Positions 3,501 through 46,112 of a stretch of DNA of 64,000 nucleotides are shown here, piece by piece. The DNA is from Lachnospiraceae bacterium (GTDB taxonomy: Bacteria > Bacillota > Clostridia > Lachnospirales > Lachnospiraceae). The DNA is taken from the NCBI GenBank assembly GCA_017437065.1, contig JAFSBX010000029.1, forward strand, positions 31,668 to 95,667, written 5' to 3'. The notes beneath the pieces are model-generated. The model ran no database searches. It was not told the DNA's origin and saw only the letters and a list, made by a program, of their open reading frames with translations. Every line of letters starts with the position of its first letter. Position 1 is the first letter of the stretch. A program made the translations under genes and the position numbers.

Positions 3501-6479
3501 ATTTTCAACATCTGTGGCGGTTGATTCTGTATTGGTTAATACTTTTGCTAAATTTTCAAAAGAAGAATAATCAATACTAATTCCTTCCATTTCGTTCAAG
3601 TCATCTACTGTGGATTTGATAGAGTCCAACATAGAAACGTCTACATTCTCTAATGTAAATCCATCCTCTGTGAAAATATCATTCCATGCATCTGATAATG
3701 AATCCATAGCAGGTTTAAGTTTTGTGTTGATTTCACTTACCATTTCTGAAATACCTAAATCGGTTATTTCAGGAGTAGCATCTTCCTCAATATCACGCTT
3801 CTGCTCTGCAAGATATTTTTTCAATTCTTCCAGCGATGCATTATCCAATTCGCATGAAAGCATGATTTTCTTATCTTCTTCTGATAACGTGTTAATCCAA
3901 GAAGATATTTGCTTATCCATATCCGATGAAGTGCTATATGTAGAACCATCAGACATATCTGTACCATGGGCAAATTTATCTTGCAAACGCTCCGATAATG
4001 TAATTGCAGTCCCGTCCGTATAATTCATCAGCATATCATATTTAGCATATATGTCATCTAACATTGCTAATATATTATCTGTTTCTTCCGATATACCTGC
4101 AACAAGATTATCATCATCCGTTTGAAATTCACCTATGTATGTGTCTAATGCTTTCTGTACGGCAACAAGTACTTTCGTTTTGGAATTAATTTTATTTTGA
4201 ATTAAATTAAAATCTGTAGAATCAACCGCATATTTATCCTGCTCTTTCTGTAATGAATCAATCTCTTTATTTAATTCTACAATCTGATTCATGTAATCAA
4301 GAGAGGCTTGCATTCTGTCTCTATCCACATCCTGATACTTTCCTACTCCTCCAGCACCACGAGTTTCTTCATAGAATACTGTCGTACCTCTTGTTTTCCA
4401 TACACCATTATCAGGAACAGATGTAAATACTTCTGTAGCAGCATCACTGGCATCTTTCTTAGCCTGTTTTTCCAAAGCTTCTTTAATGCGGAGTTCTCTT
4501 TCCAGTTCATCGTTTTGCTCTCGCAACTTCTTTAATGCTTCTTCATCGGTCGGGTCAATTTTATCTTTGGCAAGAATTTCATCTATCTTTTGCCCTGTAG
4601 TTTCCAACTCTGAATTAATTGTTGCGATTTCAGATTGTAAGTCCGAAAGCTCTTGTGCGGATTTTTCTGCTTTCTCTCTTGCTTCTTCTGTAGAAATGGT
4701 AAGGGCATCATATGCCTTTGCCAACCCCGTAATTGCAACTGCTGTAATTGTCACTATACCAGCTGGTGTACTTGCCCACGCCAAGGCTTGTTGTGCCAAA
4801 TGGCTAGTTACTAATTGAATAGCCGTTCCTAAACTCCTCTCAGCTACTCCCATTGCTAATATATCCGCAACAATGCTTCTTGCTCTAACCGCTCCCCATA
4901 ATCTACCTGATACGGCAAGGGCTGCGTTTACCATAACAATTTGTGTAGCCAATCTTCCTATTGGTGTATCTAAAGCAGAAATCACACCATACAATGCATC
5001 TAAAGAATATTTAATCAGAGAAGTATTGGCAATATTTGAAACATACTCTGTCCACCTTGCACTTACTCGTGCTGATTTTGCCTCCCATGAATCGAGATAT
5101 AATTGATTTTCTTTGATTGCTGAATTTGCCGAATCAAAGTATTCCGTTTGCATTTTCTTTACCATATCCCAATTCGACAGAATACCTGCAAGTACATTGG
5201 CTTGTCTCTTATCCGCAATACCTTCCAATAACACACTTTGAGCCTCAGTATTTAAACTTGCCCATTTTTCGGATAATTCATCCAGTATATCCATTGGGTC
5301 GCGTAACTCTCTCGTTCCGTTAACAATTTCTTTTGTGGCTATCCCAACACCATTTAATGCTTTTTCTGCTTTCGCTATAGATTCATCATCTATGATTGTT
5401 CCATCGTCCAGTTCACCCTTAACCTCTCTAATATTCATTAGCACTGTACGAATAGCACGAGATATTTCTGCACCTTCTCTTTGGGTTACTGCTGTACCAG
5501 TTCCGATGAGAGCCACCAAATCTGATATTTCAAGACCAGCTACTTGTGCCATAGACGCTGAAACTTGCAAACCGTCTGCCATTTTCTGCATAGACGTAGG
5601 ATTAAGGTTCGCAATATTATTTAAACCATTTACCACATCCGTAAGACTTTCAACATTGCCCTTTAGCTGATAAGCACTATCAACAGCAAGTAACATTTTA
5701 TTTGCCGAAGAAGAACTCACATCACCTACGTTCTGTGTCAATAATGATACTTTACCAAGCTCTGTACTAAGCTCTTTATATCCACCTCTTGCAAACTCTG
5801 ATACTGATTCCAGATATTCACTTGCAACCCTACCATATTCCGTTGCAACACCGTAAGATGCTTTGCGGATTTTTTCAATCTCTTCTTCTGACATTCCTGT
5901 TGTTTTCCGCACATTTACCAATGCAGTATCAACGTCTTTCATTTCTTTAAAAGATTTGCTAATTTCGTTTATAATACTAAACAGTGAACGATATACAATT
6001 AAATACCTAACTCCGTTAGATAAATATGTCACAAAATCGTTGGCATTTTCACCTGCTATTTGCATATGATTTCCAACATTCTGAACACCTTGTTCAACTT
6101 GATGCGTTACTCTATTATTAATGTTAAGAGTACGATTCTGTTGAGCCAATGCCGTCAATGCTTGATTCTCTGTTTGTAAAGTTCTCTGACGAGAGATTTC
6201 CAATTGCTGTGATACCCTTAATCTCTCTGTCTCCAATCTATACTGTTGTTGTGCTTGCGTGAGATTTGCATTGATATTAACAGGTGTATTGTTTATCGTC
6301 CCCATTGTACGATATATCACATTTAATCTGTTAATTATATTATCAAGATTTGTTCCATTGATATTCAGACTAATAGCTTGGTTATTGAGACGAGAAACGA
6401 TATTTCTCACCCTATTTTCAACCGCTTGAACAGTGCTTTCATTTAAGGTTAGATTTAAACGTATTACATCATCAGCCAT
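579..6479 (-). CDS. Phage tail tape-measure protein
   Basis: About 1966 aa. The ATG at 6479 is preceded by AGGAGG five bases upstream; a GTG at 6485 overlaps that Shine-Dalgarno and is unlikely. After an N-terminal helical part, residues around 165-360 resemble the PhageMin_Tail/TP901-1 tape-measure core (MSEEEIEKIRKASYGVATEY, EFARGGYKELS, NLNPTSMQKMADGLQ). A hydrophobic stretch lies near residue 580, a long charged coiled coil near 1150-1260, and a glycine-rich segment precedes the C-terminal AEGTVGKAFANGT region. It sets tail length and guides DNA ejection. At about 1.5 A per residue this predicts a long non-contractile tail near 290 nm (inference). Upstream lie two small tail-type genes. 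Confidence 0.93.
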   Translation of the reverse strand: MADDVIRLNLTLNESTVQAVENRVRNIVSRLNNQAISLNINGTNLDNIINRLNVIYRTMGTINNTPVNINANLTQAQQQYRLETERLRVSQQLEISRQRTLQTENQALTALAQQNRTLNINNRVTHQVEQGVQNVGNHMQIAGENANDFVTYLSNGVRYLIVYRSLFSIINEISKSFKEMKDVDTALVNVRKTTGMSEEEIEKIRKASYGVATEYGRVASEYLESVSEFARGGYKELSTELGKVSLLTQNVGDVSSSSANKMLLAVDSAYQLKGNVESLTDVVNGLNNIANLNPTSMQKMADGLQVSASMAQVAGLEISDLVALIGTGTAVTQREGAEISRAIRTVLMNIREVKGELDDGTIIDDESIAKAEKALNGVGIATKEIVNGTRELRDPMDILDELSEKWASLNTEAQSVLLEGIADKRQANVLAGILSNWDMVKKMQTEYFDSANSAIKENQLYLDSWEAKSARVSARWTEYVSNIANTSLIKYSLDALYGVISALDTPIGRLATQIVMVNAALAVSGRLWGAVRARSIVADILAMGVAERSLGTAIQLVTSHLAQQALAWASTPAGIVTITAVAITGLAKAYDALTISTEEAREKAEKSAQELSDLQSEIATINSELETTGQKIDEILAKDKIDPTDEEALKKLREQNDELERELRIKEALEKQAKKDASDAATEVFTSVPDNGVWKTRGTTVFYEETRGAGGVGKYQDVDRDRMQASLDYMNQIVELNKEIDSLQKEQDKYAVDSTDFNLIQNKINSKTKVLVAVQKALDTYIGEFQTDDDNLVAGISEETDNILAMLDDIYAKYDMLMNYTDGTAITLSERLQDKFAHGTDMSDGSTYSTSSDMDKQISSWINTLSEEDKKIMLSCELDNASLEELKKYLAEQKRDIEEDATPEITDLGISEMVSEINTKLKPAMDSLSDAWNDIFTEDGFTLENVDVSMLDSIKSTVDDLNEMEGISIDYSSFENLAKVLTNTESTATDVENSMDEFATAILNGVSSTKELDSSTAQMVATLLESIGVSNAQEIVFAKLNAQTEALALQEQFATQHGIELANASNDIVAGFLNQAGATETARMYLFQLVSAEQIFNNQDLNTAEKIAELKELATAYGQTAIAARIANLEKASADGHIPIDYEKELNALQTDINNAVNNVKVDFTPITKASGKAGKDAVEEYKKALEKELSDLGNVIGHIGDIIGDQIDLFNEQKDAAVDALEAQKKAAEEALEAEKDLVQAQIDAIQAKIDAKQKEIDAINEASEERKREIELQKAQFDLLRQQNQKTVLLYKDGQMQYDTDLFGIRDARESVTQAKESIKIAGIEKEISTLETEIKGLEDVIDSLDEKIENSNKYYDSLIESTEKYWDGVIKGLEDYKSRWDELKEIEERAEMEVIFNKLGISTEEVLNMSDSAFQAFKEHYLALLTEIHSGSDEMVTALKEVADSADFAPLDKSLQTTKENIDNLGKTDLSSVSTGLSNTASSAETLNTNTEGVDENLSGISDSLNTMPESTKVSNLATAFKDLATEIKNVADALGIGTDESVSGLVQALTEISELSLGDADKELGIIAQFGNLKAKVDEVTNAISGGGSSSASSKGNNNAASGVAQAGLNANAESGSANSLTGAIEEMAQKAEESLGNGGEDSEEGTIGKFNALKTAVQNVIDLIGTEANTSGSAEGAENLISAIQLQYDRATEILPLEKLLFEELLTTIDKCVVSLNKMVSAFNSIAELGGMPTLPNGGGGGSHSSNSGSSYGGGGHSRGYAEGTVGKAFANGTGGYNGLPHDEKNALRSEYGQPELTVYPNGDVEYTDTPTMSDLPRNTIIFNEEQTKRIMNNKGTVLGNAYADGNVVLKKVEIPSYLRPLQEGDKGYELTQKFLAYQDKLASQIIPPVTAIERNMEMLTKNISNVNTNTVNKPTVNVGGITVNCPNVNSKEIAMKVSTELEKAVFGMSNYAYQKSSITR

Positions 6480-6490
6480 AAGCACCTCCT

Positions 6491-6937
6491 TTAGTTCTTA
6501 GCTTTCTGAATCTGTGCGAACAATTCATCTTGTTGCTTTTTCAAATTTTCCAGTTTATCCGGTGTAAATTCTATAGCCAATGTTTCATTAAATCGCTGTA
6601 TTGCATCATTACGATTGAAAACAATATTATTAATCTCATTTTCAAGCATATCAACAAACACCGCGTAATCTAACCGCAATCTTTTGACACCTCTGCCCTT
6701 AAAATCTTCCGCTGAAAAATTATATTTATTATACTGTTCAATACTCATAACTCTATCTTCCTGAAGTTCAAAAACCGATAAAAACCTTGAAAGTAATACT
6801 GTTTTTATGTACAGATGTTTCTTCAAAGAATCCACTACTGTCACACCATTTTCATTTTTCTCCGTCACAAAATCAGCACCAACTAATGCCAATTTATAAA
6901 TTTCTTCTAAGTCTGTTCCTTTATAATTGATTTCCAT
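6491..6937 (-). CDS. Small phage protein in tail cassette, possible tail-assembly chaperone
   Basis: 148 aa, starting MEINYKGTD after CAGGAGG. It is mostly helical and ends in a lysine-rich coiled-coil-like tail. I do not recognise the family. The slot directly upstream of a tape-measure gene is normally held by tail-assembly chaperones (gpG/GT type), so that role is suggested by position only. The tape-measure Shine-Dalgarno abuts its stop codon, so the two are co-translated. Confidence 0.7.
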   Translation of the reverse strand: MEINYKGTDLEEIYKLALVGADFVTEKNENGVTVVDSLKKHLYIKTVLLSRFLSVFELQEDRVMSIEQYNKYNFSAEDFKGRGVKRLRLDYAVFVDMLENEINNIVFNRNDAIQRFNETLAIEFTPDKLENLKKQQDELFAQIQKAKN

Positions 6938-6958
6938 AATATTTTGTCCTCCTGTATC

Positions 6959-7411
6959 TTATATGTATTTTTTAATTATGCCATTTGCATATTTGGTTGC
7001 TTCCTGTTGCACTACCTCAATAACATTTGTAGCTTCGCCTTTTCTTGGGTTATTGTTTGAACCTTTTATCCCATGGATAATACTTTCAATAAGTCCCTTT
7101 CTGAAATCCCCTTTGTCGAATCCTGAGTGAGTACCCCACCCGTATAAACTTGGATTCACAGACATAAGTGCATCATCAAAGTAGACTTCAATACAATAGT
7201 TTCCCTGACCATTCTTTATTACTTTTCCTTCAACCGCAGCTATCAATTCATATGTTCGCGAATAATCTGTGGGAGAGTATGATTTATACCATAATTCATC
7301 AACAGCTTCTCTCAACATATTTTTTGTTTCCAACATAACCTGCTCGGCAACAAGATTTAGTTTAGTATCATATTTTTTCGTAATTTGTTGTAATTGTGCC
7401 TTAATACTCAC
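6959..7411 (-). CDS. Phage minor structural protein, HK97 gp10-like by context
   Basis: 150 aa starting MSIKAQLQQ. An N-terminal helix (TKLNLVAEQVMLETKNMLRE) is followed by YSPTDYSRTYEL and a short beta-rich middle, with a basic C-terminus. The layout (long helix, then SRTYxL and small beta elements) resembles gp10-like neck/tail-completion proteins, but the match is weak. It is the most upstream gene of the visible tail cassette; no head or portal gene follows. Confidence 0.6.
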   Translation of the reverse strand: MSIKAQLQQITKKYDTKLNLVAEQVMLETKNMLREAVDELWYKSYSPTDYSRTYELIAAVEGKVIKNGQGNYCIEVYFDDALMSVNPSLYGWGTHSGFDKGDFRKGLIESIIHGIKGSNNNPRKGEATNVIEVVQQEATKYANGIIKKYI

Positions 7412-7435
7412 TTTGTCTCCTTATGTATTTTTCTA

Positions 7436-7464
7436 TTGACAATCCTTGTATGGTTATATATAAT
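7436..7464 (+). promoter_or_regulatory. Perfect-consensus sigma-70 promoter on the + strand
   Basis: TTGACA (7436-7441), a 17-base spacer and TATAAT (7459-7464). A second TTGACA starts at 7464. No + strand gene lies downstream: the transcript would run antisense through the 61-aa HTH gene and into the hairpin-rich stretch at 7.8-8.26 kb. Confidence 0.7.
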
Positions 7465-7528
7465 TGACAACATATTATATATTTGTGTGTAGTTTAACCA
7501 TTTTTCAGCTTTAAAAAAATAAAATATA

Positions 7529-7714
7529 TTAATGACTATCGAGATAATCGTTCAATTTGATTAAAGAACTTTCCCACAATTCTCTCTTCCCTGTCTTGAA
7601 ATTGCTGAGTATCTGCTTTGGAATACCCACTTGTTTAGCAATATACTGTTGCTGACCTTCAATCATTTTTTGAATTAATTTTGCTCTTACAGTGTCCTGA
7701 CTAATTTCTGTCAT
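7529..7714 (-). CDS. Small HTH DNA-binding protein
   Basis: 61 aa with start MTEISQDTV at 7714, supported by GGAGGT nine bases upstream; the frame stays open further upstream but without a ribosome-binding site. QQYIAKQVGIPKQILSNFK matches a Cro/XRE-type helix-turn-helix. It sits between the polymerase gene and the tail cassette, so it could regulate late genes (inference). It is overlapped by a possible antisense transcript from the promoter at 7436-7464. Confidence 0.75.
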   Translation of the reverse strand: MTEISQDTVRAKLIQKMIEGQQQYIAKQVGIPKQILSNFKTGKRELWESSLIKLNDYLDSH

Positions 7715-7824
7715 AAATGGTTTACCTCCTTCTTTTTGTGTTTCACATATGAAATTTAATTCATAATAAAATATAGAAGCATACATTTCTGTATACTCCC
7801 ACTAGAAAAAGCCTTTTATAGCCA

Positions 7825-8262
7825 AATGCTCTTACGAGCTTGATAATTCGTACTACTACCCAGCAGAGGTTGTGGAGTCCTCTGCTGGGCAACCTATAAG
7901 CATTGTGGATATGCCATAGGATTTTACATCGTTATAATTGTTTTGATTTTGTGAGCCTAGTGGAGTAAGCCCACGATAGACCGATATACTTTTGACGGTA
8001 TACCAGCCTTTGCACAAAAGATTTTACACTGACACCTTTTCCACAACGCATCAGCAACTCAATTGTGTCCACAACATGATATTTAAAACATCACATATTT
8101 TATAATAACACCTTACGGTGAAATTACCGTGTGAGGGATTAGCACCCTCATATTACATACATATACACGCATCTAATTTAGATAATATGTACGGCAGAAA
8201 GTATACACTTCCTAAAACAATATTATTCATAAACTTGCGAACATATAAAATCATATGGCAAG
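7825..8262. ncRNA. Hairpin-dense non-coding stretch between HTH genes
   Basis: No gene. At least nine local perfect stems are present: GCTC/GAGC (7828-7839); an 11-bp stem CCCAGCAGAGG/CCTCTGCTGGG (7859-7889); CCTAT/ATAGG with inner GCAT/ATGC (7893-7920); GTGG/CCAC (7960-7974); ACCG/CGGT (7980-7999); CACAA/TTGTG (8042-8067); ACGGT/ACCGT (8115-8130); TGAGGG/CCCTCA (8132-8150); TTGC/GCAA with inner CATAT/ATATG (8235-8261). Either a 5' leader on the minus strand or a separate + strand RNA is possible. No clear terminator is seen. Confidence 0.45.
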
Positions 8263-8271
8263 CAAATATCA

Positions 8272-8487
8272 TTACAACACAAGTCCATTGATTTGTAAAA
8301 AATCATCGACTCTTTTTAATGTATCTACATATTGACCAATCATTTTCATGTGATAATCCGGCAAAACCAGCTTACCATTTGTCCAAGCCGATAACTGTTG
8401 AATTGAAATGCCAAGCGTCTTAGCCATATGGGACTTGGAAATTCCATACTGACTAAGGTAGTCCTTTACTTCATTCTGTAATCCCAT
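8272..8487 (-). CDS. XRE-type HTH protein
   Basis: 71 aa, starting MGLQNEVKDYL after AGGAGG. ISKSHMAKTLGISIQQLSAW is a clear helix-turn-helix. Short, one domain, no effector part. It lies just downstream of the RNA polymerase gene on the same strand and is likely a phage transcription regulator. Confidence 0.8.
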   Translation of the reverse strand: MGLQNEVKDYLSQYGISKSHMAKTLGISIQQLSAWTNGKLVLPDYHMKMIGQYVDTLKRVDDFLQINGLVL

Positions 8488-8591
8488 AAGACCTCCTTAT
8501 AATCTTTCATTAAAATTTTTCCTAAATTATTTCTTTCTCTATATAGCGTTGGCACTTTTTATTCACTTTAGCCAATTTACCCTTGTGTTTC

Positions 8592-11500
8592 CTAGGATAT
8601 TTTTGTTATATTTTCACGAAGTTCATTTTCTAAATCTAAAATGGCAGAGGTTCCTTTGTCATACCTAAAATAATCCCTTATCATCGTACCTGCTTTATTA
8701 TAATCTTCAGTCTCAATCCAAGTTTCTCCTTCATGATACGGAAATAGTACTCTTATCTTTGTACCACCACGATAAATAACACTTTCTACTATCCCCCTCT
8801 TCTCAAATAATGCAATTGCTGAATCCATGTATTTATGACTTACGTCCGTCAATCGTTCCAATGTTATATCAGTAAGTTCATTCGGCACATTATTCAGCTT
8901 TTTCATCCATTGTGGAACCCCATTTTCATCTTCGTATTTACGACTGAGATATACCAACATGGTCAAAATACGTTTCAATTTAGCGACATTATCTTTACGC
9001 TTAATTGTTTTTTCTTCATATGCTTTATTTATTAAATTATTGATACATTTTCTATCTTCTTTTGTAAGCAAAACACTTTTGTCCTTGTATTGAGTACTTC
9101 CCTGTATCGAGTTGATAATTACCTTTTTTCTATTAGCATTCTTGTTCTTTTGCTTTTTTGCAAATTCAACATTTCTCTTATGATTCTCTTCCAATTTAGA
9201 GAAATCAATATTTGCCATAATAGTTTCGCCAGAACTCCTTACAATCATCTCATCTGGAAAAGCATTCCATAAAATATCCTTTTCCAAATCCAAGAATTTT
9301 GCACCATTCTTCTTATCACCATAGTAAATTATCACAAGCATATCAATGAGCTTATTAATGTCTGGTTCTAAAATCAATAATTCTGTTCTGCATTTTTCAT
9401 AAAACCATCTATACTTGTTTGCAGCCGACCTCTGATGTGATTTTGACTTTAAGGCTTCTTCGTTATACCACTTTGCAATTTCCCTATATTCTCTCTGTAA
9501 TACTTGCACCATACGATATACTTTGCGGTTAATAGATGGCTGACTACGGAGAAAACATTTTCGATAATCAAAATCATATTCGCTTGTCTTCAAATCAATA
9601 TGTGCAATTTCCGTTTCTGCATAATGACACAACCGATTCATATTGCAATCATAATCCTTGAATTTTCGTATCTTCTCAATCTCCTGCTCCGACTTTCCTG
9701 CGTTCCTTGCTTTTTTTAGTGCCTTTTCTTCCGCTAATGCCTCTGCACTATTTTTAGCGAGATACCGCATCCAATATCCACGTTTACAAGACTTAAAAAA
9801 GTTCTTTATTTCTTTCGGAAAAAAAGCATTCTCTCCCGTTTTTGCAAAATCAATTGTTTCTCCACCAACAATTACACCTATCTTAATGTAATCTCTGACT
9901 TTTTGCTCGTCTACATGAACACAAGACCATAAATCAGTTACTCTATCAATGACAGAACCTATTGAATTCTTAAAAGACATCTGGTTCACCTTCATCAAGG
10001 CAGCTCTATCCGCAACGCAAATCTCTTTTTTAGTTTTCTCTTTCTTATTAGGTTCAACTTTTACAACTAATCTTCCATTTCCGGCTTTAAATTCCCTTTG
10101 AACCGCATCAATAAAAGGCTTACTATCAAAAACTGCGACAGAATCGCCATCAAAATCTGCGTTCCCGATTACTAATGCTAATGCGTCATACATTCCCGTA
10201 ACAATTCCTGTACTCTGAAACTTATACCACTTTTTAAGTTCTTTATTATTTCTTAAATGACAAATTCTATGTTCCATTCCGACATGCGGATTCCTTATCA
10301 TATCTACATCAAATGCCCCTCTGTCATTCCACCAATCTGAATAAATATGATATGGCTCTTTTAGTAACCCTTGTGGTTCACGTCCTAATTCATCATGAAA
10401 AGCCCATTCTGCTAATCCATATAAATCCGGCATAAAGACTTGATAATTACCATGTACAAATAATTTTCCTGCTAAGAGATTGTTTCTTAATTTTTCAATA
10501 TCAGATTCTATCTTGCCATGCACATATTTGTCATGAAACAATTCTTTATTACGACTTAGTGCTACATAATACGGTGGTGTATATTTATCAATATTTTCTA
10601 CTTCCTCACCATCATCAGATATGTCAATTAATGCCCTATACTTCAGAAATTCGTCAACATTTGATACTATCTTACGATAAATATCAATTCCTGTCTTACT
10701 TACTACTGGTATTTCTTCATCCGTAAAATTAATAGTCTGTTCAGGTTGGTAACTTAACATTGTTTTACTTGCCAAATCAGAAGGATGTACGCCATAGGAA
10801 ACAATATTGAATGTTCTATTATAACCATGGCATTTCTTATCAAATTCATTTCTCCACAGTGTATAGTCAAAATTACCATCCTTATCAAGATACTGTTTCC
10901 AGAACTTAAACTGGGATTTTGTAAGAATCACATCTATCTCGTCTTTAAAAATATCCCATTCTCTTCCACCCAAATCAATAATCTTTGATACATGCATTTC
11001 TTTCGCAAAACGCTTCAAATCAAAGACCATAACCTCACCTTTTATGCCCGGAATAGCACGAAACTGAAAACATGATGGCAAATAGAATTTTCCTTTACGA
11101 GATTTACAATCAAGTTCTTTCGCCCATTTCAATGCACATTCCGGCGTAACTAATCCTGCACCATCAAAAGGAAGTATTTCTAATAACTCTCTACACCTTT
11201 TTCTTCCTTTATGCCCAATGGGTTTATACTTCTTATTATCGCCTGTTCCAGATACCTCTACTATATCCACTTTCTCTTTAATTGACTTCTTATAATCATC
11301 AATAACAACAATTTTAGGTGCATTTGACAATGCTGTACTATCTGTTGTTACCATCGCATAATAAGCATTCCATTTTGACGGTGTATCATGCATAAGATTT
11401 TTGGGCATTCCACAAAGAAGAATATCATTAAGTTTATCTACAACCTCCATATCTACAAACAAGTTCTTTTGTGTTCTAGAATGACCTGCTCCACAAAATG

Positions 11501-11906
11501 TAGATGCATATTGCTTGGTATCTTTCTTTTTCGTAACATAATGATTATCCTTGTCCAAAATCTTATTACCTTCTTCATCCAGTACATATTCCATATTAGT
11601 AATTTTCAATATACCTTTGTCCTTAATTAATTTATCATATCTTGCAATATTCTTACCCACATCCAATGTAAAGAATGAAGGAACTATGTCGTATCCACTT
11701 GTATTCTTTTCTGGCTTATCATCCTCAGATTTTTTATTTAGATGCATCAAAATCCTGTGCATTTCACTTTCACTTGCAAGATTCTTTGAATTTTCCTGCT
11801 TATATGGCGATAAAACAATTTCATTCTCAAAAGTTCCATCATCGTTTTTTACTAAATCATTAATATTAATATTCTGAATTTCAACCATTTTACTTATAAC
11901 AATCAC
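8592..11906 (-). CDS. YonO/QDE-1-type two-barrel single-subunit RNA polymerase
   Basis: 1104 aa. Residues 584-588 are DFDGD within GNADFDGDSVAVF, the metal-binding signature of the second double-psi beta-barrel in all two-barrel RNA polymerases. Before it, RNPHVGMEHRICHL (539-552) matches the segment that precedes the aspartate loop in QDE-1-like enzymes. Residues 248-297 (DGAGLVTPE, then CFQFRAIPGIKGEVMVFD) match the DGxG...FQxR..G.KG pattern of the first barrel. The protein is too short and lacks the other blocks of host RpoB/RpoC. In SPbeta, YonO transcribes late phage genes from DNA; the same is inferred here, with tail genes downstream on the same strand. The GTG at 11906 or the ATG at 11888 may be the start. 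Confidence 0.85.
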   Translation of the reverse strand: MIVISKMVEIQNININDLVKNDDGTFENEIVLSPYKQENSKNLASESEMHRILMHLNKKSEDDKPEKNTSGYDIVPSFFTLDVGKNIARYDKLIKDKGILKITNMEYVLDEEGNKILDKDNHYVTKKKDTKQYASTFCGAGHSRTQKNLFVDMEVVDKLNDILLCGMPKNLMHDTPSKWNAYYAMVTTDSTALSNAPKIVVIDDYKKSIKEKVDIVEVSGTGDNKKYKPIGHKGRKRCRELLEILPFDGAGLVTPECALKWAKELDCKSRKGKFYLPSCFQFRAIPGIKGEVMVFDLKRFAKEMHVSKIIDLGGREWDIFKDEIDVILTKSQFKFWKQYLDKDGNFDYTLWRNEFDKKCHGYNRTFNIVSYGVHPSDLASKTMLSYQPEQTINFTDEEIPVVSKTGIDIYRKIVSNVDEFLKYRALIDISDDGEEVENIDKYTPPYYVALSRNKELFHDKYVHGKIESDIEKLRNNLLAGKLFVHGNYQVFMPDLYGLAEWAFHDELGREPQGLLKEPYHIYSDWWNDRGAFDVDMIRNPHVGMEHRICHLRNNKELKKWYKFQSTGIVTGMYDALALVIGNADFDGDSVAVFDSKPFIDAVQREFKAGNGRLVVKVEPNKKEKTKKEICVADRAALMKVNQMSFKNSIGSVIDRVTDLWSCVHVDEQKVRDYIKIGVIVGGETIDFAKTGENAFFPKEIKNFFKSCKRGYWMRYLAKNSAEALAEEKALKKARNAGKSEQEIEKIRKFKDYDCNMNRLCHYAETEIAHIDLKTSEYDFDYRKCFLRSQPSINRKVYRMVQVLQREYREIAKWYNEEALKSKSHQRSAANKYRWFYEKCRTELLILEPDINKLIDMLVIIYYGDKKNGAKFLDLEKDILWNAFPDEMIVRSSGETIMANIDFSKLEENHKRNVEFAKKQKNKNANRKKVIINSIQGSTQYKDKSVLLTKEDRKCINNLINKAYEEKTIKRKDNVAKLKRILTMLVYLSRKYEDENGVPQWMKKLNNVPNELTDITLERLTDVSHKYMDSAIALFEKRGIVESVIYRGGTKIRVLFPYHEGETWIETEDYNKAGTMIRDYFRYDKGTSAILDLENELRENITKIS

Positions 11907-13197: not shown

Positions 13198-13461
13198 TTA
13201 TTTATCTACCGTCCTTTCACATTTTTTGCAATATTTCACAAAATTAATCAGTTTCCCACTCCAATTAGACAGCTTAATCCGAAAATCCCTCAACTCAGTA
13301 ATATCAAATACCTCTTCTTGTGGCACATCAACAAGAGTCAAATCTGTGTGATGTGCTTCTACACTAAAATTGAAGAAAGATATCTTATCTACTGCATAAA
13401 TAGAATCACATATCCTTATAAACTTAATCTTTGTTCCGTTAATTTTTGTAATCCTCCTCAA
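13198..13461 (-). CDS. Hypothetical phage protein
   Basis: Up to 87 aa. The only start with a nearby Shine-Dalgarno is a TTG at 13461 that overlaps the end of the preceding gene, so the true start is uncertain. The C-terminus carries KYCKKCE. No family recognised. Translational coupling to the 333-aa gene is likely. Confidence 0.5.
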   Translation of the reverse strand: MRRITKINGTKIKFIRICDSIYAVDKISFFNFSVEAHHTDLTLVDVPQEEVFDITELRDFRIKLSNWSGKLINFVKYCKKCERTVDK

Positions 13462-14440
13462 ATACTCTCTCTGAATTAAAATCTGTTATAGTCCTAAATG
13501 TTTCCACATCAATAAGTTTATCCGTATAAATCGTACTTACAGCATTTGGCTTTATCAGTTTAACCAGCAATTCAATCGGCATTGCAAAGTCAATAGTATT
13601 CGTATGACAACCAAATACTTCATACTCATAGTCTTCTATCGCCGTTATATCTACACCCAGATTATCAATGCACCAAATCATATTTTCGATTGCATTATAC
13701 TGTCTGAAATCTCTATCAATCCTATTCTCCGAAAGATTAATAAGCATTTCTTCATTTTTGATGTAATCGCACCAAGGCAAAATCAAATTACCATCATCAT
13801 CTTTGTACAAATCATGCCATTGTTCATAATCTCCTAAATCAGAAAAACTATGAAATACACCTTGTCCAACAATATATGCGTCCAATCCAACATTTCCAGT
13901 ACAATCAATTGATGTAAGATACTGCACATCTAATCCGAAATTCCTAATCTTATCAATATCGAATCTTTCCTTATCATGGATAAACTCAATCATGCTCCTA
14001 TAATTAGAATTAGATTTACCATCCTGCATCAGTTCCTGTAATGCTTTCTGCTTTTCTTGTGGAATCTCATGTGTTAAAACGTACTGCTCAACACTTTTAC
14101 AACCTGTCCTAGCTGCCATCATCTGAAGATAATCTCTTGCAAGTGCAAATTTTAGTCCTTGAAAGCTCATAACAGAATCTATCTTGCTTCGTAGTGTTTC
14201 AATCCGAGTAATCTCTATCTGTCCCTGTTTGTGTAATGCTGATTCATTCTCCGCAAGCAGATTGTTATAATCTGTTTCTCTAATACACTGAACACCACTT
14301 ATTTTCTCAATAAGTTGGGAATGCTCATTTATGAAATCTGCACGCTTGTATCCTAACGCTTTTACTACGTCTGATAGTGGTAAATATACTTTGTTGTCTT
14401 GAATTAATTTTATATTGAATTTTACTGTTTTGTTCTTCAT
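13439..14440 (-). CDS. Hypothetical phage protein with possible N-terminal DNA-binding module
   Basis: 333 aa, starting MKNKTVKFN after GGAG. The N-terminus (VYLPLSDVVKALGYKRADF) has the look of a BRO-N/antirepressor-like module, but the rest matches nothing I recognise. Acidic C-terminal half with several tryptophans. It forms an operon with the HEXXH protein upstream (5-bp gap). Confidence 0.65.
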   Translation of the reverse strand: MKNKTVKFNIKLIQDNKVYLPLSDVVKALGYKRADFINEHSQLIEKISGVQCIRETDYNNLLAENESALHKQGQIEITRIETLRSKIDSVMSFQGLKFALARDYLQMMAARTGCKSVEQYVLTHEIPQEKQKALQELMQDGKSNSNYRSMIEFIHDKERFDIDKIRNFGLDVQYLTSIDCTGNVGLDAYIVGQGVFHSFSDLGDYEQWHDLYKDDDGNLILPWCDYIKNEEMLINLSENRIDRDFRQYNAIENMIWCIDNLGVDITAIEDYEYEVFGCHTNTIDFAMPIELLVKLIKPNAVSTIYTDKLIDVETFRTITDFNSERVFEEDYKN

Positions 14441-16046: not shown

Positions 16047-16092
16047 ATCCTCATAACACCAACACAAATACATTTTTATGAATGGAGTACAT

Positions 16093-16671
16093 ATGAGAAC
16101 AAAATATAAAAACTTTTTTCGTGAAACAGATGCCGATAACTGGGTTAATACATATAAAAAATACTTCCCTTCAAATGAGGATGAAGACAAAGATTTCTTA
16201 TCGGCAATCCATTATTACACTGGTTCAGCAAATACCCTAATTAATAATGCTTTACGTTATGACAAAAACATACTGGATAATGATTTTATGCAACCTATCT
16301 TCCAACGTTTGATTGAAAAAGTACCCACTTATCAGATTCCAGATAATATTGTCGTGTATCGCTACATTTCAAAAGGTCTTCTCAAAGAAATGTGTCCCTC
16401 ATACCCACCAAGAAAAAGTATGATTATCTGCGACAAAGGTTTTATGAGTACAACTCTTATTAGGACAAGTATTAACGACTATAGACGTTCAAATCCACAT
16501 CAAAATATTTTATTAGAAATATCTGTTCCTGCTGGTACAAAAGGAATATATGTAGGACATTTAGAAAACACTCTTTCTGAATATGAAGCTATCCTTGCTC
16601 CTAATACAAAACTACGCATTGAATATAGCTCTTTATTCTCTAAATATTTTCGATGTACTGTGGTATCTTAG
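16093..16671 (+). CDS. ADP-ribosyltransferase-fold protein 2 (exoenzyme-type)
   Basis: 192 aa from MRTKYKNFF; GGAG five bases upstream favours this ATG over one 15 bases earlier. It shows the ADP-ribosyltransferase exoenzyme pattern: VVYRYIS (Arg90), DKGFMSTTL (Ser119-Thr120-Thr121), a VPAGTKGIYVG strand, and LSEYEAIL (Glu163-x-Glu165) followed by PNTKLRI. Only the catalytic domain is present and there is no signal peptide, so it acts inside the cell. It is transcribed against the trend of the element and is divergent from ART-like 1; the two are not close copies. Confidence 0.8.
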   Translation: MRTKYKNFFRETDADNWVNTYKKYFPSNEDEDKDFLSAIHYYTGSANTLINNALRYDKNILDNDFMQPIFQRLIEKVPTYQIPDNIVVYRYISKGLLKEMCPSYPPRKSMIICDKGFMSTTLIRTSINDYRRSNPHQNILLEISVPAGTKGIYVGHLENTLSEYEAILAPNTKLRIEYSSLFSKYFRCTVVS

Positions 16672-17267: not shown

Positions 17268-18197
17268 TTAATACAATTCCATTAAACTTTCATCTGTTTC
17301 ATATAAATTATCTATATCAAGCAAATCAGCATCAATATCTTCCGATTGAACTTCATCTAATGTAGGGATTTCAAGCATTTCTTCTTCACTGAAATCATGC
17401 ATTGCATCAGGTTCTCCCCATTGGTCAGAATCAACTCCAAATATTTTATCTTTATTCTTTGAGACACCTGACAGATTATTAGTTGGTGGATAGAACCCAT
17501 CAATAAAACCATAATATATTTGTAATTCCTTTATAAAAGCTTCCTTCGTAGATTTGTTAATATACTTTTCTTCTAATGCATAGACATTATTAGAATTCAC
17601 AGTAATTTCCTTACCTTTTCTCATCCTCAAATATGAACCATAATTTACAACATATAACATTTTCAATCCACAAAGTATTTCTGTATTCTTTTTTACTGTG
17701 CCTACACTACACCCACATTCTTTTGCCAATGTTTCTTCGCTTGGAAAAGTAAACGGTCTTGCAGAACCAGCATCTACATCAGCAGATATATTCTTTTTAA
17801 TATTCATATACAAATACAAAACTTTATCCATATTTTTTGTGTTACTGCTTCGCAAAGTATCAATCTCAGAATACAGAAGTTTGGTAAATTGACCTAGCGG
17901 ATTCCATTTATCATCAAGATTTATCAATTGCACTGTAAACATCATATTGCAATCAACATCATCTAACAAAGTAAGCCCACCGTTGGAGTAACAACCAATG
18001 TATTCAATAAAACCTTTATCAATCATTAATTGTAACGTACTGTAAACCTTGTCATTAATACGCCCTTTATTCCTGTTTGGTATAAAATTATGATAAAGAA
18101 TAAAATCCTTTATGGTAAGATTCACATATCCTTCAATACTCTTATGCCGATGCAGATATGCATACATAAGCATAAATAATTCATCATACTGTTCCAA
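17268..18197 (-). CDS. Replication-initiator-like winged-helix protein
   Basis: At least 309 aa. The N-terminal region (YAYLHRHKSIEGYVNLTIKD) and a second winged helix with EETLAKECGCSVGTVKKN look like RepA/DnaD-type initiators of Firmicutes plasmids and phages. The C-terminus is very acidic. The TTG at 18197 has no Shine-Dalgarno; the frame continues upstream and an ATT near 18222, preceded by AAAGGATGG, may be the true start. Five tandem repeats lie about 60 bases upstream, as expected for an iteron-controlled or self-regulated initiator. Role in element replication is inferred. Confidence 0.6.
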   Translation of the reverse strand: MEQYDELFMLMYAYLHRHKSIEGYVNLTIKDFILYHNFIPNRNKGRINDKVYSTLQLMIDKGFIEYIGCYSNGGLTLLDDVDCNMMFTVQLINLDDKWNPLGQFTKLLYSEIDTLRSSNTKNMDKVLYLYMNIKKNISADVDAGSARPFTFPSEETLAKECGCSVGTVKKNTEILCGLKMLYVVNYGSYLRMRKGKEITVNSNNVYALEEKYINKSTKEAFIKELQIYYGFIDGFYPPTNNLSGVSKNKDKIFGVDSDQWGEPDAMHDFSEEEMLEIPTLDEVQSEDIDADLLDIDNLYETDESLMELY

Positions 18198-21483: not shown

Positions 21484-22536
21484 TTAATCAAGTTCACGCA
21501 ATAAATCTAAACTTACTTGTCTACGTTTACTATTCTCTTTCTGCACAACGACAACAGGCTCTTCATCCACCTCCTCCAAATCATCCAAAATAGTAAATGC
21601 TTTTCTTTTCTGAATACGTTCTTTCTGTTCTTCCATAGCCTTCTTACCCAAACTTGAAATATATTCAACTGGGAATCCTAATCCAGATGCACATGCAATA
21701 TTTACAGTTCCATTGTTTCCAATAAAGATATTTTCAGGATTTCCAATTGCCTTAACAATCTCATGCTCGTTTATACGATTATCCTTTTGATTGATAATTC
21801 CGATATTTGCAACAATCCCATCATTATTAATAGGAAGAAAAATGTTTTTTGCCGTCAATGCATTAATTACATCCTGTGTGCTTACCTTATTATTCTCTGA
21901 CTTGTTATCAGATAACATTGATATTACAAATGCTCCATGGTCAGATAACATTTTCATCTTTTCTGAATCATCAAAATTAGAACCACTTGAAGTTGAATCA
22001 TCTGAAAAGAATGCATCCAACATATTCACCAATGTTTGATTGATTTTCTTCAAATCAGTATAGGATTCATTGTTAACAAAAATGATTGCTCCCATTTCTG
22101 GTATTGACATCAACTCTTTCGCCACATTATATGCATTAATCCGTTTCTGAATCGGTTCATCTCTTCTCGGCATTAACAGAGCTGCACAAACAATCTTACT
22201 TGGGTCAGTACATTCTATTTCACAAACGGGAACTATACTTCCTGAACCTGTTGTTCCACCGCCGGTTGCAATATTCAAAATAATCTTTTGTTCAATTGCT
22301 CGTATTTTTCTTAGAATCTCTTTGTTGTTTTTTAACGCTTCATAAGCAAGTGACCTGTCACCGGCAAGCCCATCATATCCTTCTAGTACCATGAGATTTT
22401 TCGCACCTGCTACCGATTTATTGTCTTGTACAGAACCATTAATAAGCATTGAATAGTAATTCCTTTGTTGAAATTCATATCCACATGATTCACCACCTAA
22501 TCCTAATCCTACAACTGCCACATTATTCTTTATCAT
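21484..22536 (-). CDS. tubZ: TubZ/FtsZ-like tubulin-family GTPase
   Basis: 350 aa. The tubulin signature GGGTTGSG (92-99, T4 loop) is clear, with an N-terminal GLGLGGES (T1), NAYNVAKEL (134-142) before a buried strand IIFVNN, and a late acidic stretch ending in a basic SKRRQVSLDLLRELD tail. Overall similarity to FtsZ is low and the gene is next to a winged-helix gene, the arrangement of type III (TubZRC) partition systems in Bacillus plasmids and the clostridial phage c-st. It probably forms filaments that segregate an extrachromosomal form of the element. PhuZ-like positioning of phage DNA is an alternative. Confidence 0.8.
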   Translation of the reverse strand: MIKNNVAVVGLGLGGESCGYEFQQRNYYSMLINGSVQDNKSVAGAKNLMVLEGYDGLAGDRSLAYEALKNNKEILRKIRAIEQKIILNIATGGGTTGSGSIVPVCEIECTDPSKIVCAALLMPRRDEPIQKRINAYNVAKELMSIPEMGAIIFVNNESYTDLKKINQTLVNMLDAFFSDDSTSSGSNFDDSEKMKMLSDHGAFVISMLSDNKSENNKVSTQDVINALTAKNIFLPINNDGIVANIGIINQKDNRINEHEIVKAIGNPENIFIGNNGTVNIACASGLGFPVEYISSLGKKAMEEQKERIQKRKAFTILDDLEEVDEEPVVVVQKENSKRRQVSLDLLRELD

Positions 22537-22789
22537 CTTGTAATCCTCCTCGCATCTCTACAATATCAATTCCTTTTTGTTGCAAATAGAAAGTATCTGC
22601 ATTTGTCGATTTACAACCTCTTTTTACATAACCAAGTTTTTCCAAATTTATCATTTTTCGATATGTAGTTGGTCTTGAAGTCTTTGTGAAACTCATTATT
22701 TCTTGCAACGTTGCGCTTTCAAAATGACTTATGCAGTTTTTCTTTTTCAACAGCTTTAGAATCACATAATCTAATCTGTTTAATTCCAT
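22523..22789 (-). CDS. tubR: TubR-like winged-helix DNA-binding protein
   Basis: 88 aa, AAGGAG upstream. ATLQEIMSFTKTSRPTTYRKMINLEKLGYV is a winged helix-turn-helix. It overlaps the tubulin gene by 14 bases, so the two are translationally coupled. In TubZRC systems TubR binds the centromere upstream of its own gene and represses the operon. The upstream region here holds an antirepressor remnant, and no tandem centromere repeats are obvious. Confidence 0.65.
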   Translation of the reverse strand: MELNRLDYVILKLLKKKNCISHFESATLQEIMSFTKTSRPTTYRKMINLEKLGYVKRGCKSTNADTFYLQQKGIDIVEMRGGLQDDKE

Positions 22790-31878: not shown

Positions 31879-32484
31879 TTACTTTGACTCCACGATTTTC
31901 AAGTATTTATATATTGATGGTCTGCTTATTCCAGATAATCTTGAGAACTCTGACAGGTTTATACTTCCATTTTGGAACATAGGATAATATTTCAAAAAGT
32001 TATATGGTAATGTATCAATGGTTGTTTCAGGTCTTCCGAGCCGTACACCTTTCGCTTTCGCGTTTAGCATTCCTGATTTTATTCTTGCAGTTATAATATC
32101 TCTTTCCAGTTCTGCAAATACTCCCCACATCAACATCATACCTTTACTGATTGCATCCAATTCTTTGCCCGGAGAACAATCAATAGTAATACTTCCAGCA
32201 ATCACTAATTTAATTTGCTTCTCTTGTACCTCTTTAATAATCTCACAGAGTTTTTGTGTACTTCGTGTCAATCTGCTAACTTCTAAAGATGTTATAGAAT
32301 CCCCAGCTTGTACAATCTGCATTAGTCGATTCAATTCTTTTCTATCGTCCTTTGTTCCGCTCTCATATTCATAGAAAATATTTTCCTCTTTGATTCCCAA
32401 CTTTTTTAATTCCCGTGTTTGTCTGTTAATGTCCTGCTTTGATTCATTCGTTGAGCAACGGGCGTAACCATAATCCAATTTCAT
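31879..32484 (-). CDS. Small serine recombinase (resolvase/invertase family)
   Basis: 201 aa. GYARCSTNE carries the catalytic serine (Ser11) after Arg9; SLEVSRLTRS and ELERDIITARIKSGM match the core of resolvases, and GRPET leads to a C-terminal HTH (LSEFSRLSGISRPSIYKYL). Catalyses local site-specific recombination such as multimer resolution or inversion; it is too small for a large phage integrase. Three matching 12-bp sites lie just upstream of its start. Confidence 0.9.
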   Translation of the reverse strand: MKLDYGYARCSTNESKQDINRQTRELKKLGIKEENIFYEYESGTKDDRKELNRLMQIVQAGDSITSLEVSRLTRSTQKLCEIIKEVQEKQIKLVIAGSITIDCSPGKELDAISKGMMLMWGVFAELERDIITARIKSGMLNAKAKGVRLGRPETTIDTLPYNFLKYYPMFQNGSINLSEFSRLSGISRPSIYKYLKIVESK

Positions 32485-35962: not shown

Positions 35963-36520
35963 CTAATTCTTTCCAATAACCAATTTTTCCATTAATAACG
36001 CTTTAATCCGATTCATTTCCTTATAATAGGTTGATGAATTTATTCCATACACTAAACAAATTTCTTTATTGTTATAGCCATCCATTTTCATTTGAATTAT
36101 TTTCCGTTGAAGCTCTGAAAAATTTTCCAATAATTCCAACATTGTTTCCATTTCCAAATATTCCGCTTCAAGAGATTTTCCACCGATACAGTTATAAAAA
36201 TTTTCCATTTCCGCATAGTCAGCATCTAAACTTATAATTGTTTCCAATGACTTTCTTTTCTTGGCTCTTTCCGTTTTAAAGTGGTTGCTGAGTTCTGCCC
36301 TCATGTACATATCTGCAATATAAGGAAATTTGAATTGTTTCCGCAAATCTTCCCTTCTGTGATATACCTGAACTGATTTGAGAAAGCCCATAACAGCGAT
36401 ATTGTAATAATCATCAACAGAATATCCATATTTATGTAAAAAGCTATATATTAAGTTGTGATTTTCTGTACTGAAGATTTTTTCCGACTCAGTAAATGGC
36501 TGTAATTTATTTCTTTCCAT
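35963..36520 (-). CDS. Sigma-70-like RNA polymerase sigma factor
   Basis: 185 aa from MERNKLQPF with AAGGAG upstream; a longer form to 36571 is less likely. Region 2 is visible (NHNLIYSFLHKYGYSVDDYY...MGFLKSVQVY) and region 4 is an HTH (FSELQRKIIQMKMDGYNNKE...YGINSSTYYKEMNRIKALL). It lacks regions 1 and 3, like ECF or Tn916-type factors. It presumably redirects host RNA polymerase to element promoters. Confidence 0.75.
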   Translation of the reverse strand: MERNKLQPFTESEKIFSTENHNLIYSFLHKYGYSVDDYYNIAVMGFLKSVQVYHRREDLRKQFKFPYIADMYMRAELSNHFKTERAKKRKSLETIISLDADYAEMENFYNCIGGKSLEAEYLEMETMLELLENFSELQRKIIQMKMDGYNNKEICLVYGINSSTYYKEMNRIKALLMEKLVIGKN

Positions 36521-36591
36521 ATGGTACACGCTCCTTTTCTTTCCATTGGGAAGATTGTCCAGAACGGACAACCCTCCGTTGATTCCTTTGG

Positions 36592-43551: not shown

Positions 43552-44862
43552 TTAATCCGTAATCTCAATTACCCAATTCATCATAGCTTGATATACTTTA
43601 TCGGGTATTTCAGCTTTGTATTGTTCCGCTATATCCTTAATAAAATCCTCTTTATATTCCTTATATCTTGCAAATGCCAATTCAGCAGTATCAAATCGTC
43701 CTAATTTAATTGCCTGTCCCATGAAAGACATTTCCGCACGAAATTTATCTCTTTCTTTATCATAATGGACACCAATAGGCAAATCTCCCCTATTCTTTTT
43801 TCCATTAACAAATAATGTATTAATCTCATGAGGCACAAATGCAACTGTAGCCGGACTATACTCTTTATTTCCTTTAAACAGAATATCCTTATCTAAGTCC
43901 AATTTCATACCAGCAATTTTATTTTGGTCATACCATAACTTGAAATTACTGTAATTCAGCCATTCTTCGCATACCGTACAATCTTTATACTGTGGATGCT
44001 TTTCATGAAAATTCTTATTATAGCAACGATTCATCATATCATGCCATCTCAAATAAGATTCTATTTTCCCATTCTCATATAAAACACCACGATAACCAAG
44101 CCCACACATAACAGGCTCTAACAACTCCTTGCTCCAATTGTCAGGCATATAACGAATATCATTCATAACCTTTACAATAAATTTCTCGGAGTCATCACCA
44201 GTCTCTTTAAAATGTCTTTTAACAATTCTGTACTGCTCCTGATTTAATGGATATAGATTTTTGTAGTAATTATCCTCTTTATCATATCCGCTATGCCATA
44301 TGTAAATATTATTTGCTTTATCAGGATTCACAATAAACTCTTCTACTACTGCTTTAGCTGCCCACAAATCAACTCGCTTCCAATTCCATTTACCATCAAA
44401 GAAAACATTCTTCTGTACTGTATAGCGCAAAGCACCATTACTGTCATAGTTACCTTTTAGAAGTGTATATTTCCCATTAGCATACTTGATTGCACGTCCA
44501 TAATTTGATAACCACGTATTTTTGCACTCCATCAGTTTTATAAACATTTCATCTGTACCGATGGGAATAATGCCAGTAGAGGAAATATCAAGTATTCGTT
44601 CCTTCTTGATGGATTTATACTTTCTCTCAATAAGTATTTCTAAGCTATCGGAAAACTCAATCTTATTCTTTTCTTCTAAATAACCACGCTGATATTTGTA
44701 CTCACATTCTTTACAATGTCCTAAATAGTATGGATTATGAAATTGCCCTTTAACCAATCTGAATTTCGCTATCGGTAACAACCTTCCACATTTTTTGCAT
44801 ATCTTTGTCTCATTTTCTCCAATTTCATTAACATTTTTACTAATAATATTTTTATCAATCAT
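43552..44862 (-). CDS. Zinc-finger and AP2-like phage protein (homing-endonuclease type)
   Basis: 436 aa. N-terminal zinc finger CKKCGRLLP...CKECEYKY, a central region with WHDMMNRCYN...CTVCEEWLNYSNFKLW, and LDLDKDILFKGNKEYSPAT, then a C-terminal AP2-like module (GVHYDKERDKFRAEMSFMGQ, LGRFDTAELAFARYKEY). This arrangement is common in phage HNH/AP2 homing proteins, though a clear HNH triad is not visible. DNA-binding is likely, nuclease activity uncertain. Confidence 0.65.
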   Translation of the reverse strand: MIDKNIISKNVNEIGENETKICKKCGRLLPIAKFRLVKGQFHNPYYLGHCKECEYKYQRGYLEEKNKIEFSDSLEILIERKYKSIKKERILDISSTGIIPIGTDEMFIKLMECKNTWLSNYGRAIKYANGKYTLLKGNYDSNGALRYTVQKNVFFDGKWNWKRVDLWAAKAVVEEFIVNPDKANNIYIWHSGYDKEDNYYKNLYPLNQEQYRIVKRHFKETGDDSEKFIVKVMNDIRYMPDNWSKELLEPVMCGLGYRGVLYENGKIESYLRWHDMMNRCYNKNFHEKHPQYKDCTVCEEWLNYSNFKLWYDQNKIAGMKLDLDKDILFKGNKEYSPATVAFVPHEINTLFVNGKKNRGDLPIGVHYDKERDKFRAEMSFMGQAIKLGRFDTAELAFARYKEYKEDFIKDIAEQYKAEIPDKVYQAMMNWVIEITD

Positions 44863-45963: not shown

Positions 45964-46010
45964 AATAAAAAAAATCCTCAAAACCTTGTATTTACTAGGC
46001 TTAAGGATTC
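45964..46010 (-). terminator. Terminator downstream of tRNA-Glu
   Basis: AATCCT (45973-45978) with AGGATT (46004-46009), minus strand followed by TTTTTTTTATT. Confidence 0.65.
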
Positions 46011-46040
46011 TTCGGGTTGGGCTATTCTAAAAATAGTCAA

Positions 46041-46112
46041 CAGCTCGTAGGGGAATCGAACCCCTGTTTCCGCCGTGAGAGGGCGGCGTCTTAACCGCTT
46101 GACCAACGAGCC
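46041..46112 (-). tRNA. tRNA-Glu (anticodon CTC)
   Basis: 72-nt cloverleaf: acceptor GGCTCGT/ACGAGCT, D-arm GTC-AAGCGGTTAA-GAC, anticodon arm CCGCC-CTCTCAC-GGCGG (anticodon CTC, codon GAG), T-arm AGGGG-TTCGATT-CCCCT. G1 faces U72 (wobble pair). CCA is not encoded. Its 3' end points into the phage element. Confidence 0.95.

Follow-up and report, generated by a model that had tools for sequence, protein, structure and literature searches.

The 64,000-nucleotide stretch of Lachnospiraceae DNA analysed here (the window; positions 31668-95667 of contig C7, source genome G000) carries a 48-kb element integrated at a tRNA-Glu gene, and this element, also called C7 below, encodes a single-chain two-barrel RNA polymerase (RNAP) of the YonO/QDE-1 type, an assignment of the open reading frame (ORF) 8592-11906 that is supported by homology, conserved residues and fold matches. 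The analysis established the family and fold of the polymerase, the borders of the element, the lack of detectable head genes, a conserved gene order and a structured RNA. From these features we infer, with moderate confidence, that the capsid-less element carries an active DNA-dependent RNAP of the YonO family which, with a role for its C-terminal winged helix, would drive a short late transcription unit, and that the element would spread by means of a helper tailed phage.

Homology and fold of the polymerase

The polymerase ORF occupies exactly 8592-11906 on the minus strand, starts with GTG and runs for 1104 aa with 0 internal stops. As the first-pass annotation of this DNA had proposed, both double-psi barrels are found in this one chain: SPbeta YonO (Bacillus phage SPBc2, NC_001884) aligns across residues 129-697 with 25.3% identity (E 6e-26), and matches to solved two-barrel RNAPs cover residues ~4-895. 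The DFDGD motif was found at residues 584-588, where it had been placed, and D584, D586, G587 and D588 are invariant columns in an alignment of eight proteins (including SPbeta YonO, Perkons and TR-TP1), as are D248, G249, G251, R283, K289 and G290 of the first-barrel motif that the annotation had located near 248-297. The same residues, including the Asp triad D584/D586/D588 and R283/K289, are invariant in an alignment of 43 polymerase sequences, with the exception of G587, which is nearly so. Homologs of the polymerase are long ORFs with identities ranging from 70% (G265) down to 24% (G366), SPbeta YonO among them; dN/dS between C7 and G265 is ~0.09 with dS near saturation, and 0.09-0.14 over the three computable pairs. 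The long homologs, the YonO match and the low dN/dS together rule out a chance ORF. Searches of Pfam, NCBIfam and (with the single sequence) the PDB returned no RNAP match, and a CBM_17_28 match below the cut-off (E 0.0098) was taken as chance. Since the fold matches stop at residue ~897, the winged-helix reading of the C-terminal extension (~945-1081) comes from modelled secondary structure alone.

The proposed comparison with known two-barrel enzymes yielded matches to YonO, QDE-1 and, more weakly, the crAss-like gp66. SPbeta YonO is likewise a single-chain two-barrel RNAP, but is shorter (839 aa, with a Cys-rich end) and lacks the C-terminal extension; in SPbeta, too, yonO is followed by a DNA-binding gene and then a long gap ahead of the structural genes, although SPbeta has terminase and portal and its stretch is unmatched by the model of the RNA described below. 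QDE-1 and plant RDR2, which are RNA-dependent RNA polymerases of eukaryotic RNA silencing, differ in matching at only ~13% identity, and this match leaves the extension beyond ~897 unaligned, which says nothing on a counterpart. The crAss-like virion RNAP shares the fold; phi14:2 gp66 and P23-45 gp64 and gp96 gave weaker matches than the others, gp66 and gp96 being virion enzymes.

The closest named relatives occur in Parablautia intestinalis and [Clostridium] citroniae, both of which we take to be Lachnospiraceae. Relatives of the polymerase were present at E <= 1e-8 in 25 of 397 family genomes, source genome included, and a profile of the long form found 14 of 392 order genomes at E <= 1e-10, with more than 700 bits in four only (G000, G514, G706 and G614). 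Among the loci compared here, full-length proteins of this subfamily exceed 600 bits, 268 bits being the highest score of any other YonO-like protein. A plasmid search gave four records, all from Bacillus and taken as SPbeta-like from the match table (one is annotated yonO). YonO-like enzymes are already known from prophages and firmicute genomes (excerpts of PMC5467207 and PMC7824862), and it has been suggested that they may resemble a single-chain ancestor of the cellular RNA polymerases (excerpt of PMC5467207).

Borders, gene content and relatives of the element

The element is delimited by an exact 57-bp repeat whose copies lie 48.0 kb apart (Table 1), its left end being 2.0 kb left of the window. 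Both flanks beyond the repeats are chromosomal (left: SpoIIP, Na/Ala symporter; right: PolC, IspG, Dxr), and a tyrosine integrase lies just inside the left end (phrog_1, E 4.3e-32), so that the element has the integrase and attachment repeats of a temperate phage. The PHROGs scan of its window part covered 37/37 minus-strand ORFs of at least 100 aa and the small ORFs 7529-7786, 8272-8487 and 22523-22789; none of the 37 matched a terminase large subunit, portal or major capsid protein. Two weak head-and-packaging matches were seen, one for the 150-aa protein and one, to a terminase small subunit family, for the helix-turn-helix (HTH) part of the sigma-like protein (Table 1), the former being the sole structural-type match besides the tape measure. 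The first-pass annotation had described a Lachnospiraceae prophage with a long-tail cassette downstream of the polymerase on the same strand. The tape-measure gene on that strand bears this out in part, yet 'cassette' says too much: what follows is this one tape-measure gene with small genes, then a 270-aa gene, the integrase and the end of the element. The exact attachment borders and the missing head genes also disfavour an ordinary long-tailed prophage, and what was annotated as such is a delimited 48-kb element. Being integrated without a complete virion gene set, it resembles the phage satellites (PICI, P4, PLE), most of which are smaller than 48 kb. We know of no phage satellite that carries both its own two-barrel RNAP and a tape-measure gene.

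Relatives were assigned, from their contigs and not blind, to a headless group (H: C7; G265, a P. intestinalis contig that ends inside the tape-measure gene; G180; G715 = G723 from C. citroniae; G716, G721, G123, G353, G706 and G514; later also G132:C15) or to a group of phages (P: G717 (L062), G718, G719 (L065), G720, G722, L061 and L064). Gene clusters were counted over whole contigs including flanks, except for C7. The polymerase cluster is present in 10/10 H and 9/9 P contigs, the tape-measure cluster in 8/10 H and 2/9 P (G720 and G722, whose tape measures thus cluster with those of H), with the G353 tape measure matching that of C7 separately (E 2.9e-21); the tyrosine integrase cluster occurs in 7/10 H contigs. 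Capsid and one terminase cluster were found in 0/10 H and 3/9 P contigs and the portal cluster in 0/10 H and 6/9 P. Over 14 records, the portal family phrog_64 was detected in 5/5 P and 0/3 H virus records; in G265, G123, G353 and G723 it is confined to contigs distinct from the H contig, and there is none in G180 and G706. The P phages thus share the polymerase subfamily and differ in their head genes, confirmed for G722 by PHROG matches (capsid 1.5e-28, terminase 1.3e-38, portal 3.4e-49; tape measure 2.4e-79). In G180, G716, G723, G721 and G706, no head family was found among the best 25 of 86 matched families, where families with a single member do not show; this set held 68 of 91 proteins of at least 190 aa, integrases, HNH and TubZ-like repeats and G723 ORFs right of ~66 kb being omitted, and five ORFs cut by stretch ends (one of 150 aa) are absent from it.

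Attachment repeats were sought in ten contigs. G180 has an imperfect repeat of ~111 bp at tRNA-Glu (65.4 kb) and G716 one of 47 bp at tRNA-Pro (55.6 kb); the 20-bp repeat of G723 at tRNA-Pro (55.0 kb) is weak and may be chance, and a 17-bp pair in G706 was taken as chance. None was found in G715, G721, G123, G353 and G514, several of which are cut contigs. In a polymerase tree of 33 sequences, of which 15 were grouped and 18 carried no group (among them x_L058, x_L059, x_L065 and x_G614; L065 was later placed in P by its portal), H and P are separated by one change (support 89/90), a number of changes as low in 1/500 shuffles for H and 0/500 for P. Within H there are four deeply branching lineages (three supported at 100/100, the fourth being the single sequence G721), joined with P at an unresolved fork. 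Because of these four lineages the headless state looks old, a single origin not being proven. In seven elements (C7, G180, G715, G716, G721, G123 and G353) the polymerase ORF is 1075-1112 aa and the tape-measure ORF 1968-2968 aa long, and judging from gene content the combination of polymerase and tape measure without head genes is kept in relatives from other bacteria. The tape measures diverge quickly: identity is 27% (539 codons) where the polymerases are 72% identical, and 26% against 68% between G716 and G706.

A structured RNA between the polymerase and tape-measure genes

The gap between the polymerase and tape-measure genes contains a structured non-coding RNA (Table 1). Its DNA is similar in C7, G706, G716 and G265 (nhmmer E down to 2.5e-15), with no common ORF seen in these four, and folding z-scores are -6.56 for C7, -6.59 for G706 and -6.23 for G716, with 0 equally good shuffles. 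A profile from the four sequences also matched G123 (E 5e-29) and G721 (E 2e-15) at the same position; the contigs searched, among them the P contigs and SPbeta, yielded no further match. In a five-sequence alignment 95% of the pair cells are standard pairs against 86.1% when shuffled, and 19 pairs are changed on both sides against 6.9 (0/500 shuffles; 0-4 when slid), the structure having been derived from the same alignment as tested. The 5' hairpin, GGTAAT...TATTATAAA, keeps its pairing through differing stems in seven sequences, as judged by eye. We had considered TTATTATAAA as a promoter, which was dropped as it forms the 3' side of the pairing hairpin; an exact 15-base scan of viral contigs for GCRTTGTGGAAAAGG returned at least 120 stretches, taken as chance matches of a short pattern.

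Across five sources Rfam matched only tRNAs at gathering level, and it gave nothing at E <= 1 for positions 6400-8700 of the window. A covariance model (R1) was built for this structured RNA family, which Rfam does not contain. R1 identified 3 of 397 family genomes. Two of these, the window and G123, had supplied sequences to the model; the third is G132:C15 (94.8 bits, E 1.7e-14). In the same genomes there was no match in G180, G353 or G265, the last being without an alignable 3' part. Alongside the RNA, G132:C15 carries a TubZ-like gene (73% identical to that of G721), an HTH gene and a 2334-aa tape measure that is 60% identical to that of G716 over 774 residues, together with a 1010-aa DFDSD protein in which 17 of 27 checked conserved polymerase residues are kept and 10 are lacking. 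The minimum-energy folds of all seven sequences place GUGGA in a hairpin loop, and all seven leave one YCCAC or more mostly unpaired, although YCCAC is clearly over-represented only in C7 (3 against 0.25 expected) and G706 (4 against 0.38). On these modelled folds it is possible that the GUGGA and YCCAC loops form a kissing pair, within or between molecules.

The best-window z after the polymerase gene, from 25 shuffles and the best of several windows and hence biased low, is -5.0 for C7, -9.0 for G265, -3.0 for G180, -4.1 for G715, -7.4 for G716, -6.7 for G721, -6.8 for G123, -6.6 for G353, -8.4 for G706 and -4.2 for G514. Among sisters it is -2.9 (L062), -6.0 (L064), -6.0 (G718), -5.4 (L065), -6.0 (G720), -3.8 (G722) and -4.4 (L058), and elsewhere -4.1 (SPbeta yonN-yonK), -0.4 (SPbeta yonO-yonN), -1.6 (Perkons), -2.3 (G366) and -2.8 (L072). 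Strongly folding gaps after the polymerase thus occur also in the sister phages L064, L065, G718 and G720. The RNA went unrecognised in the P loci searched, and from their predicted folding these gaps are possibly distant relatives of it.

Proposed role, alternatives and further genes

In the scheme that we favour, the host polymerase would make the YonO-type enzyme upon induction. The enzyme would then transcribe one short late unit, for which its C-terminal winged helix and small HTH proteins perhaps serve as guides. By its position the RNA (~8128-7843) would open this unit, the small HTH/structural genes and the giant tape-measure gene would also belong to it, and the tape-measure protein would be its main product. 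The gene order fits transcription of an adjoining late operon by the polymerase. Besides its integrase the element carries plasmid-like maintenance genes (TubZ/TubR-like, resolvase and replication-initiator-like). Because a tape-measure gene is present and head genes are not, it would most likely spread in the particles of a helper tailed phage, whose tail the tape-measure protein would adapt or sabotage; the strong divergence of the tape measures, expected if they match changing phage partners, points towards the satellite reading. A more specific form, in which an old class of capsid-less tailed-phage satellites has its own two-barrel RNAP and a dedicated transcript (a kissing-loop RNA plus a tape measure re-tooling the helper tail), with the RNA acting as promoter/leader or as particle scaffold, is tentative and on present data rather doubtful.

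Several points weigh against the favoured scheme. No helper was identified. In the source genome terminase phrog_2 gave weak matches on C78 and C68 only, a family that also matches in 11/14 control genomes, and portal phrog_64 none anywhere; there is therefore no resident helper of that kind, which slightly lowers this reading and slightly raises that of a prophage remnant. The 150-aa protein has its weak head-and-packaging match, and head genes that have diverged strongly could have escaped detection. Of 11 H elements, seven have a recognisable copy of the RNA; G180, G715, G353 and G514 do not, although their windows still fold (z -3.0 to -6.6). Fast tape-measure divergence fits adaptation but equally relaxed constraint. 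The polymerase genes of G706 (L178/L179) and G514 (L181), two separate H lineages, have one in-frame TAG each. Just outside the left repeat, a 457-aa gene matches phrog_7043 'tail protein' (E 1.3e-55) along its metal-hydrolase-like part. Finally, activity, expression and mobility are here read from sequence.

An unlikely alternative is that of an anti-phage island, in which the polymerase would mass-express a decoy tape measure (and the RNA) on infection by a tailed phage and so spoil its tails, transfer being secondary. The tape measure as main conserved structural gene, a divergence fitting an arms race and the lack of head genes and of phrog_64 in the source genome would agree with this; the integrase and partition-like genes are rather typical of mobile replicons, and in G180 the gene directly after that of the tape measure encodes a fibre-like protein of 2471 aa (L042 12388-19803; carbohydrate-binding and Peptidase_S74 domains), which suggests particle building and not sabotage alone. 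That the element is a decaying prophage, its head genes lost and polymerase and tape measure left over, we hold to be quite unlikely: in-frame stops in 2/11 H polymerases, a mere 767-aa ORF at the expected tape-measure position of G514 and the quick divergence of the tape measures speak for decay, whereas four deeply branching polymerase lineages (one a single sequence) share the reduced gene order, at tRNA-Glu as well as tRNA-Pro sites, seven elements keep long ORFs for both proteins and polymerase dN/dS is low in all three computable pairs. Delivery of the polymerase as a virion enzyme, passing through the tail together with the tape measure, is improbable; in its favour, the conserved neighbourhood of the two genes and the two-barrel RNAP of P23-45 (gp96), fused to a tape-measure protein (excerpt of PMC10770324), could be cited. 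The reading first annotated, a regular long-tailed temperate phage whose late RNAP is YonO-like, is very improbable. Sister polymerases in phages that have capsid, terminase and portal as well as a tape measure (G722) and the weak virion-structural match of the 150-aa protein speak for it. Against it, none of the 37 minus-strand ORFs of at least 100 aa scanned within the exact borders matches a terminase, portal or major capsid, and the ORFs of at least 310 aa encode the polymerase, tape measure, integrase, a 333-aa protein with a weak antirepressor match, a TubZ-like protein, a KAP NTPase and an AP2/HNH endonuclease.

The annotated 'new late-transcription system' does not follow from the polymerase as such, since SPbeta is already known to have its late genes transcribed by an enzyme of the YonO type (excerpt of PMC5467207); novelty would rest instead on the headless element and its RNA, neither of which the annotation had noted. 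Titles and abstract starts of the open-licence papers listed gave no description of such headless elements or of the RNA, which is apparently undescribed so far. The promoter and cofactors of YonO-type enzymes are given as unknown (excerpt of PMC5467207), and a clade that pairs one polymerase with a single conserved RNA and a single short putative target unit would be a far smaller system for promoter finding. Should the headless elements prove to be satellites, these would encode their own transcription enzyme and tail ruler.

Table 1. Features of the element in window coordinates.
Feature	Position	Strand	Remarks
Two-barrel single-chain RNA polymerase, YonO family	8592..11906	-	1104 aa; YonO homology, conserved residues, fold matches
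Structured non-coding RNA, between polymerase and tape-measure genes	7843..8128 (approximate)	-	5' hairpin ~8099-8128; 3' part = model R1 at 7844-8011
Right attachment repeat (57 bp)	46008..46064		Overlaps 3' part of tRNA-Glu (46041-46112, minus); identical left copy at C7 29632-29688, outside the window
Tape-measure-type protein, 1968 aa	579..6485	-	phrog_4211 E 1.5e-67; PF10145 E 3.2e-17; PhageMin_Tail 214-419
148-aa protein, directly upstream of tape-measure gene	6491..6937	-	No family match
150-aa protein	6959..7411	-	Weak match to phrog_7299 'virion structural protein' (head and packaging), E 2.8e-6; no Pfam match
Small HTH protein, downstream of the RNA	7529..7786	-	Start may lie further in; relatives in G123 (74%), G180 (48%), G265 (37%)
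Small Cro-like HTH protein	8272..8487	-	Directly downstream of polymerase gene
Replication-initiator / DnaD-like protein	17268..18197	-	Weak match
TubZ-like tubulin homolog, 350 aa	21484..22536	-	PF22340 E 0.0017, below cut-off; no PHROG match; cluster in 5/10 H contigs
Small winged-helix protein, TubR-like by position	22523..22789	-	Adjoins TubZ-like gene; Pfam matches below cut-offs; cluster in 5/10 H contigs
Resolvase/invertase	31879..32484	-	phrog_125 E 3.8e-41
Sigma-factor-like protein	35963..36571	-	phrog_351 E 3.8e-12; Sigma70_ECF E 6.8e-7; HTH also weakly phrog_4102 E 3.9e-4
AP2/HNH endonuclease	43552..44862	-	Cluster in 5/10 H contigs

The TubZ-like gene and its winged-helix neighbour may represent a divergent tubulin partition system, and the pair is also seen in L160, L166, L178 and L049. 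The resolvase cluster touches 9/10 H contigs; it mixes serine recombinases of varied size, some possibly outside the elements. The sigma-factor-like protein could direct the host RNAP to the element. General PHROGs and Pfam scans turned up no relaxase or type IV secretion families, PHROGs being a phage library and no search aimed at them having been made. The 333-aa protein (13439-14440, minus strand; weak antirepressor match, E 0.0077) shows 69% identity to its relative in G123 against just 31% between the polymerases, a discrepancy that we read as mosaic exchange between elements. The 270-aa protein between tape measure and integrase (C7 31343-32155, its upstream end reaching window 488) has a weak PemK/MazF-like match below the cut-off (E 0.00093), and an opposite-strand ORF (16078-16671, plus) matches the ADP-ribosyltransferase exoenzyme family PF03496 (E 1e-19). 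The metal-hydrolase-like 457-aa gene outside the left repeat (C7 27877-29250) matches phrog_14556 (E 2.8e-106), and a relative of it (36%) is located past the integrase of G180.

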